A stretch of DNA of 64,000 nt from Liolophura sinensis (Eukaryota; Mollusca; Polyplacophora; Chitonida; Chitonidae). Position 1 is the stretch's first letter. Each line of letters opens with the position of its first letter. The position numbers and the translations under genes are program-made. The DNA lies in the NCBI RefSeq assembly GCF_032854445.1, contig NC_088301.1:15680281-15744280 (forward strand), given 5' to 3'. This document shows, in pieces, positions 9,901 to 12,900 of the stretch. Below the pieces are notes generated by a model, which worked only from the letters and a program-made list of their open reading frames with translations, was not told the origin of the DNA and made no database searches.

Positions 9901-12900
9901 ACAGCTTATTCCTAAAAACGCACCTTTTAAATGTAATAAGGTCAAGGGAGGTCAAGGGAGGTAATTCAGTGCAGCCCTATTCTCAGCTTAGAATAGTTAA
10001 TCATGTTTAATAGTTAATTCTTAGTTAATCGTGGTGGATGTGCTACTAAACTTGAAGTGGAATTTTTAGATCAGACATATGCACTCTGTTGAATACATGT
10101 GGGAAATATTTTGGAAATTTAATGTGCCAGATCTATTTCTGTTCATGTTTTGCGTGAATGTTGCATGTTTACGAGTGTTAATGATTTTGTTTCATCTCTG
10201 CAGATAGCTGTTGTTGCAGTGATGTGTAAACCACACCGATGCCCCCACATTGCCATGACAGGAAATATATGTGTGTATGTGGTTATTGCAAATATATCAA
10301 ACATTGTTACTGAAACATTTTTGTGAATAATTAAAGTCAAAACATTTGGTTATAATTTCAACTCTTAAATTGCCATTATATATATATTTATATACTTGGT
10401 ATAAAAAATCGCTGGAGGCAAAATCGATTAGAGTGGGATAACTTTTTATGTTGTCAATGCTGTCTGCTTCTTACCACATGAGTTTGTCGTAAGAGTTGGT
10501 TCATGTTTCTTTACCTTTCCAGCTATTGCCCAGGAGGTCCTGACTCTGATTTTGAGTACTCCACACAGTCTTATACCGGCTATGAAGTGAGTGATCAAAT
10601 AGTGCTCAGTTTAGTTTACAAGCAGTAATGCTCACTTTAGTGGCAGTAATGCTCAGTTTAGTTTACAAGCATTAATGCTCACTTTAGTTTATAAGCAATA
10701 ATCCTCACTTTAGTGGCAATAATGCTCAGTGTAGTTTACAAGCAATAATCCTCACTTTAGTGGCAATAATGCTCAGTTTAGTTTGCAAGCAATAATCCTC
10801 CCTTTAGTGGCAATAATGCTCAGTTTAGTTTACAAGCAATAATGCTCACTTTAGTGGCAATAATGCTCAGTTTAGTTTACAAGCAATAATGCTCACTTTA
10901 GTGGCAATAATGCTCAGTTTAGTTTACAAGCAATAATGCTCACTTTAGTGGCAATAATGCTCACTTCAGTGGCAATAATGCTCAGTTTTGTTTACAAGCA
11001 GTAATGCTTACTTTAGTGGCAATAATGCTCAGTTTAGTTTACAAGCAATAATGCTCACTTTAGTGGCAATAATGCTCAGTTTAGTTTACAAGCAATAATG
11101 CTCACTTTAGTGGCAATAATGCTCAGTTTTGTTTACAAGCAGTAATGCTTACTTTAGTGGCAATAATGCTCAGTTTTGTTTACAAGCAATAATGCTCACT
11201 CTAGTGGCAATAATACTCAGTTTACAAGCAATCTTATATTTTTAATCGTCGCATACAGGTACAAGTAATTTTACATCTCATCTGTAAATCCAGCAGAAAT
11301 CAGTTTTCTTTTTTTTTTTTTATCCAAAGTGAGTTGTGGTATTGAATCGAAATGTGATGAGTCATTTATTTGTTTCGAAACAGATATTCTGAATTATGTT
11401 GAAACTTGGTACAAATTTCAGTTTTTGCTCTGTTGTAGACTTGGAGGTACACTTACATGTATTATGCTGAACGACACATATTTGCCAAAGCAAGAATAAA
11501 AATTGCTTGTTATTTCTAGTACTGTTATTGTATAAACTTGTTTCTCACAACTATATCTATTTGATATCCCTAAAGTATGTTTGATTTCTACCATTTGGTT
11601 ATAGCCAACTTCAATGAGAGCCATTCGTGCAAGGTATAACCCTTACTTACAGACCAGACACAGAATTGAGCAGGTAAGAACAACCAACCTCGGACAGAGC
11701 TCTCTGTATAAGTTACAGACCAGACACAGTGATGAGCAGGTAAGAACAGCCAACCTCAGACAGAGCTCTCTGTATAAGTTACAGATTGGACACAGTGATG
11801 AGCAAGTAAGAACAGCCAAACTCAGAGAGAACCCTCTGTATAAGTTGCAGACCAGACAGCGAGTTGAGCAGGTAAGAACAGCCAAAACCTCGGAGAGAGC
11901 TCTCTGTACATGTTATAACCCATACTTACACACCAGACACAGTGATGAACAGGTAAGAACAGCCAACCTCGGAAAGAGCTCTCTGTACATGGTATAACCC
12001 TTACTTACACACCAGACACAGTGATGAACAGGTAAGAACAGCCAACCTCGGAAAGAGCTCTCTGTACATGGTATAACCCTTACTTACACACCAGACACAG
12101 TGATGAGCACGTAAGAACAGCCAACCTCAGACAGAGCTCTGGGTATAAGTTACAGACCAGACACAGTGATGAGAAGGTAAGAACAGCCAACCTCAGACAG
12201 AGCTCTCTGTGTAAGTTACAGACCAGACACAGTGATGAGCAAGTAAGAACAGCCAACCTCAGACAGAGCTCTCTGTATAAGTTACAGACCAGACACAGTG
12301 ATGAGCAGGTAAGAACAGCCAACCTCAGACAGAGCTCTCTGTACATGGTATAACCCTTACTTACACACCAGACAGTGTTGAGCACGTAAAAACGGCCGGT
12401 CTCAGTAAGAGCCCCCTGTATAAGAGATAACCCTTATGTACAGACCAGTCTACAGTCAGTGGATTTTTGGGATTTTTGTTTTTTTTGTTCTTTTTTTTTT
12501 TTTCGTTGATGGAGAAATCTTTTGGTTGAAATGCATTTTGATTGCCATATCCTTCATTAAGAAAAATAGTAGTTATCTCCCCTTAGTGCACAAATCTTTA
12601 TATTGTGATTTTTACTGGATATGTCAGCAAGAGTACCTTTTTGGTGTGTGTGTATGTTGTCAAGAGATACATGTACATGCTATGTGCAGGAATAACGTAA
12701 AGGATACATGAAACACTTTGGTTATATTTCTTAATGTGCAGATGATCATGTGTAATAACGTATAACAGCACGAACAAATTTTTCAACTTCGACTTTCAAC
12801 TTTGAGGGGTAAAAATAGCTCCAAAGTACAGTTTGCTTTTGGTCAGTCTGGAAATTAAGTAGCTTGCAGTGGTGATGTCAATGATGATCTCTGTTTAAAA

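Follow-up and report, generated by a model that had tools for sequence, protein, structure and literature searches.

The window analysed here, a stretch of 64,000 nucleotides of Liolophura sinensis DNA (contig NC_088301.1, positions 15,680,281 to 15,744,280 of the forward strand), contains a part of the ELP3 gene in which two exons are each followed by a tandem array of copies of their own sequence and of their 5' splice site. Solved ELP3 chains match the exon at 11605-11673, in agreement with the gene assignment of an earlier note on this DNA. The features of the two arrays and their surroundings are as follows.

11605-11673, plus strand: authentic ELP3 exon of 69 bases, matching 131-154 of the PDB ELP3 chain 8ptx_C; the acceptor TATAG precedes 11605.
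11674-11679, plus strand: authentic donor, CAG/GTAAGA (donor scan).
11647-12448, plus strand: array 1, the authentic exon end, ten more in-register copies and a degenerate tail (TRF, repeat finder, unit alignment).
11740-11958, plus strand: decoy donors 2 to 5 at 11740, 11806, 11872 and 11953, in frame, adding 22, 44, 66 and 93 residues.
12032-12391, plus strand: decoy donors 6 to 11 at 12032, 12111, 12177, 12243, 12309 and 12386, each leading to a stop.
11963-12031, plus strand: unit 6, full-length exon copy, gapless, 53 of 69 bases identical (alignment).
12042-12110, plus strand: unit 7, full-length exon copy, gapless, 53 of 69 bases identical (alignment).
12396-12448, plus strand: twelfth copy, degenerate (alignment).
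13209-13363, plus strand: next ELP3 exon, ending in EAVK; ends read by eye.
14994-15074, plus strand: downstream ELP3 exon, authentic donor at 15075; ends read by eye.
15038-15329, plus strand: array 2, units of about 43 bases, the exon's last 37 bases plus GTAAAT (repeat finding, alignment).
16053-16173, plus strand: ELP3 exon after array 2; ends read by eye.

Array 1 carries GTAAGA at the authentic donor and at nine decoys, and GTAAAA at 12386, with donor-to-donor steps of 66, 66, 66, 81, 79, 79, 66, 66, 66 and 77 bases. The donor scan thus confirms the eleven donor-like sites of the earlier note and the exact 66-base spacing that it gave for the first four. The GT is present in all ten later units, and two further donor-like words lie out of register (GTAAGT at 12211 and GTAAGA at 12405). 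TRF resolves the array into a period of 66 with 9.9 copies at 11647-12343 and a period of 79 at 11851-12140, and a second repeat finder gives 11 copies. A two-unit query of 109 bases, searched against the 609 Mb genome with very common words omitted, returns 10 matches, all inside the array 1 locus; the array is therefore not a product of chance. As a dispersed repeat, the array 1 unit is ruled out by the same 10 matches. Furthermore, CAG/GTAAGA and a computed U1 pairing of -11.0 kcal/mol are the same in the authentic site and in the decoys at 11740, 11872, 11953, 12032 and 12309. Since these five decoys equal the authentic donor in both respects, position or context must pick the first donor, and the need for a mechanism that favours it, raised in the earlier note, holds.

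The unit had been described as 27 bases copied from the exon followed by intron, which the alignment to the exon does not bear out. The two 79-base units consist of the complete 69-base exon and the ten bases GTAAGAACAG, and their translated copies end in Q or H. Six units of 66 bases are 13 bases short of the 79-base type, unit 5 is of the 79-base type with two bases added, and the array closes with unit 11 and the degenerate twelfth copy. The part of each unit that had passed for intron is the exon's own 5' half in worn form, and array 1 is an entire short exon, donor included, that has been tandemly duplicated and expanded as a minisatellite. Taken alone, the agreement with the first 30 exon bases is not strong (19 of 30), and one other place in the window scores as high; in the register of the match, a score of 19 came up in 5 of 200,000 shuffles, and the protein agreement between exon and copy is 15 of 23 residues, counted by eye. 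The assignment of these 30 bases rests on the exact register together with the protein agreement. The copies are separated by spacers of ten bases, with no pyrimidine tract before them. The authentic exon retains the residues common to solved ELP3 and the copies lose such residues: HRIEQ is kept in none of the ten copies, eight of which read HSDE and one QRVEQ, with one out of frame. The 16 mismatches between the exon and a full-length copy fall 6, 2 and 8 on the three codon positions, fewest at the second, a pattern that may stem from earlier coding constraint on a copy or, in our view, from synonymous change in the real exon.

The reading frame from 11605 is open until a stop ending at 11997. 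When the later donors are joined in silico to the next ELP3 exon, donors 2 to 5 stay open and each of donors 6 to 11 meets a stop. The open frame that the earlier note gave for donors 2, 3 and 4 stands; its list was incomplete, as donor 5 (11953, +279) keeps the frame too, which makes four possible in-frame insertions, of 22, 44, 66 and 93 residues. Each hypothetical insert would lie between RIEQ and LKQLGH, which are adjacent in the joined exon pair. Low-level leakage to the later donors is possible.

Array 2 has donors at 15075 (authentic), 15117, 15160, 15203, 15246 and 15289 and a final copy without a donor, the GT being kept in five of the six later copies. In the in-silico joins to the exon that follows, 15075 yields ELP3 sequence and all five later donors yield a stop at the junction, from which the first donor alone would be expected to make ELP3 here. 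In-frame later donors thus number 4 of 10 in array 1 and 0 of 5 in array 2.

Several other features accompany the gene in the window. A 47-base minisatellite occupies 10669-11223, some 80 bases beyond the 5' splice site of the ELP3 exon that precedes the array 1 exon, and a copy search for exon sequence within it found none. Large minisatellites, dense for 64 kb, lie at 17973-19281, 21539-22192, 36261-36599, 43480-44013 and 56774-57746, with periods of 45, 39/78, 19, 91 and 91, respectively. The ELP3-like coding sequence, read by eye, shifts frame within presumed single exons near 17285-17372 and 20340-20420, perhaps through assembly indels. In addition, there are a weak DOMON match at 41287-41526 (E 3.9e-6) and a weak zf-C17orf113 match at 47028-47510 (E 2.2e-4), both under the curated cut-off. 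Elsewhere in the genome, eight Haemocyan_bet_s (PF14830) matches, with E down to 3.3e-41, lie within one 12 kb stretch; the best PDB matches of one tested repeat unit are haemocyanins, KLH1 among them. This domain is molluscan and is not known from lancelets, and an amphioxus origin of the window, which the mirage literature could suggest, is rejected on these matches; the 14 control genomes without a match are well-known prokaryotes, as far as other family searches name them, and make a weak control.

Similar arrays occur at exon ends of other genes of the same genome (609 Mb, 632 contigs). In a survey of conserved exon matches, each match was checked for nearby copies of its own ends, and a match was counted when it had a donor-side array holding exon sequence; the ends were match ends, not annotated exon ends, extended by 20 bases upstream and by 30 (CCT, ELP3) or 60 (AAA, proteasome) bases downstream. 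Such arrays were counted at 2 of 13 ELP3 exon matches, at 3 of 39 CCT chaperonin (PF00118) exon matches, and at none of the 20 AAA and 12 proteasome exon matches, and exon-end arrays are patchy on the strength of the latter two families. The CCT figure covers 39 of 50 matches, among them two in long open frames (L025, L026) where introns nearby may be absent, and the proteasome figure covers 12 of 21 matches. Leaving out ELP3, the place of the original finding, the total is 3 of 71, and the array rate taken from this survey is a rough one. The three CCT arrays are the following.

C8:53405971: CCT array L031, 11 copies including the authentic one, steps of 66 and 88 bases.
C8:53407400: CCT array L039, 6 copies, steps of 60 and 47 bases.
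C1:72038329: CCT array L042, 7 copies, steps mostly of 109-111 bases.

The later L031 copies of 66-base units stay open in frame, as read by eye. L031 and L039 apparently share a gene with an acceptor-side array, L040, at C8:53412069, and the arrays thus cluster in some genes. L040 is the fourth of the 4 of 39 CCT matches with extra copies and was left out of the three counted; its locus (C8:53410569-53413982) combines a 41-base acceptor-side array upstream with a separate 28-base intronic array just past the donor. Extra copies were likewise seen at three of the 20 AAA matches, none of them counted. At one, L068 (match at C9:3026567-3026740), the array begins just inside the intron of an AAA-family exon and holds no exon sequence. 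The other two, L061 and L063 (C1:39401644-39402075), are AAA exons 261 bases apart and 75% identical over 168 bases, possibly mutually exclusive exons.

Across five arrays, the decoy donors show no conservation beyond that of their own units. The decoy donor 9-mers differ from the consensus at 23 of 315 positions, against 85 of 1695 in the rest of the units, a difference in the wrong direction; its pooled p of 0.10 is rough because the ungapped comparison leaves out one unit of each ELP3 array (unit 11 in array 1, unit 2 in array 2), includes the final array 2 copy, which has no donor, and places the L031 donor one base early. Letters derived from exon are no better preserved than those derived from intron, with 61 of 1233 against 24 of 462 mismatches when array 1 is included, its "intron part" in this comparison being worn exon, and 48 of 1017 against 7 of 246 when it is left out. 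The main unit lengths of the five arrays are 66/79, 43, 66/88, 60 and 109 bases, so divisibility by three is not kept up, although the main step has it in three of the five arrays. Judged from these counts, the decoy copies look like the outcome of drift and not of maintenance.

Structures of this kind have a name. The paper first describing the mirage in amphioxus Adh reportedly appeared in Nucleic Acids Res in 2002. Mirages were named in amphioxus Adh3 and are also reported from globin genes; the Adh3 data and globin RT-PCR suggest undisturbed splicing, and it has been proposed that new introns may come from such repeats (PMC3087553). Lancelet PGBD5 has 60- and 108-base repeats over splice sites, with mirages also reported in Adh and troponin C (PMC3902484). 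The amphioxus mirages (Adh3, troponin C, the globins BflGb6 and BflGb9, and the similar repeats in PGBD5) resemble the arrays found here in being tandem units of exon-intron boundaries, many with AG/GT, and have units of 10-160 bases, affect 5' and 3' boundaries alike and are reported to splice normally (PMC3087553, PMC3902484). Likewise, arrays 1 and 2 consist of boundary units containing exon, with splice dinucleotides in many, not all, of them, and in array 1 the coding sequence is retained in the authentic copy while the others drift. Unlike in the amphioxus cases, the host is a mollusc, a single ELP3 gene has two arrays, chaperonin genes have more, and the unit of array 1 is a whole exon plus ten bases. 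The literature search found no case of exon-boundary arrays in molluscs, most subscription journals being outside its coverage, and the arrays are filed here as a known mirage kind in a new phylum, Mollusca.

Three further systems are close to these arrays without coinciding with them. The tandem genomic duplication route to introns (the AGGT model; PMC3443670) shares duplicated intragenic AG/GT sites, but no new intron is seen here and the copies sit in an existing one. Tandem exon duplication with mutually exclusive exons shares side-by-side full-length copies of one exon; in array 1, however, the ten-base spacers leave no spliceable introns between copies, and the copies drift. Alternative 5' splice site choice shares the several competing donors per exon, whereas the donors here come from repeat expansion, are largely identical and, beyond the first, are candidate splice sites.

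The arrays are probably exon-boundary mirage minisatellites that are tolerated since the first donor is normally used, a reading in which we place good confidence. A segment beginning where a short exon begins, or within a longer one, and ending a few bases past the 5' splice site would have been duplicated in tandem, and the duplicated segments would have expanded and become partly homogenised, as in minisatellites. The splicing machinery would normally take the donor of the real exon, and the extra exon copies and donors would thereby become intronic, be removed and drift; being intronic, the copies would be nearly neutral, tolerated and able to expand. The same process probably acted at the ELP3 exon of array 2 and in two chaperonin genes. 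Because similar arrays stand at these places, the whole looks like a recurrent, mostly silent DNA-repeat habit of the genome rather than a special ELP3 device.

An isoform ladder, as proposed in the earlier note, would instead have donors 2 to 5 used at useful levels to give ELP3 with 22, 44, 66 or 93 additional residues. The open frame and open joins of array 1 are in its favour, as is the identity of donors 2, 4 and 5 with the authentic donor in CAG/GTAAGA and in computed U1 pairing; yet one open 66-base unit makes its copies open as well, which reduces four events to nearly one, and the insert would separate RIEQ from LKQLGH. With the stops at array 2, the arrays in unrelated genes, the decoys unconserved beyond their units and HRIEQ lost from every copy, a special ladder of this sort is not borne out, and we consider it unlikely. 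Regulated or poison splicing, in which later donors would purposely yield stop-containing ELP3 RNA that is destroyed, tuning the level, could call on the stops from six donors of array 1 and five of array 2, but the same structures occur in unrelated genes and the decoy donors carry no excess of conservation, so that this reading is very improbable. An assembly artefact that inflated the copy number or mis-joined the copies is just as hard to credit: the frame breaks near 17285 and 20355, seen by eye, hint at residual indel errors, but the copies differ in substitutions and in length (66, 77, 79 and 81 bases) and similar arrays recur at other loci. The use of a full-length copy (units 6 and 7) as an alternative cassette exon in place of the authentic one is scarcely conceivable; the gapless 69-base length of both copies and their AACAG and GTAAGA flanks would suit it, but the ten-base spacers without a pyrimidine tract and the loss of the residues shared by the authentic exon and solved ELP3 argue against it.

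Beyond the mirage reading of the individual arrays, 5' splice sites might seed tandem duplication in this mollusc, with arrays at a few per cent of exons and thousands in total, an idea that we hold only tentatively. The word CAGGTAAG, three times at 38-68 base spacing, occurs at 672 + 781 = 1453 places, against 251 + 126 = 377 for the reversed word, 182 + 94 = 276 for CAAGGTAG and 116 + 189 = 305 for the reverse of CAAGGTAG at the same spacing, places being overlapping windows and not arrays; the dinucleotides of CAAGGTAG, checked by hand, are those of CAGGTAAG. Distinct arrays listed in C1:1-5.19 Mb, a limited sample taken at a contig end rich in repeats, number at least 11 for CAGGTAAG, at least 2 for GAATGGAC and at least 2 for CAAGGTAG. 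Among the 11 CAGGTAAG arrays examined, two (L019 and L024), perhaps three (L021), look by eye like exon boundaries, with an acceptor-like end and an open frame into the first donor, and are further candidate donor-side arrays on C1; the 5' flanks of the others, read by eye, show no recognisable exon. The excess counts of CAGGTAAG are in keeping with seeding at splice sites, and the two or three exon-like arrays among 11 count against it.

Mirages have so far been curiosities of a few lancelet genes, and the ELP3 and chaperonin cases of this mollusc suggest that they are more widespread. Every array can be seen as an experiment of nature on how a donor is chosen; at array 1, the authentic donor presumably beats five decoys identical to it in sequence and computed U1 pairing. 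Half-way structures of such a sort are called for by models of intron gain, and if splice-site seeding is true, the genome would hold a natural collection of identical donors in competition, along with material from which introns could newly form.
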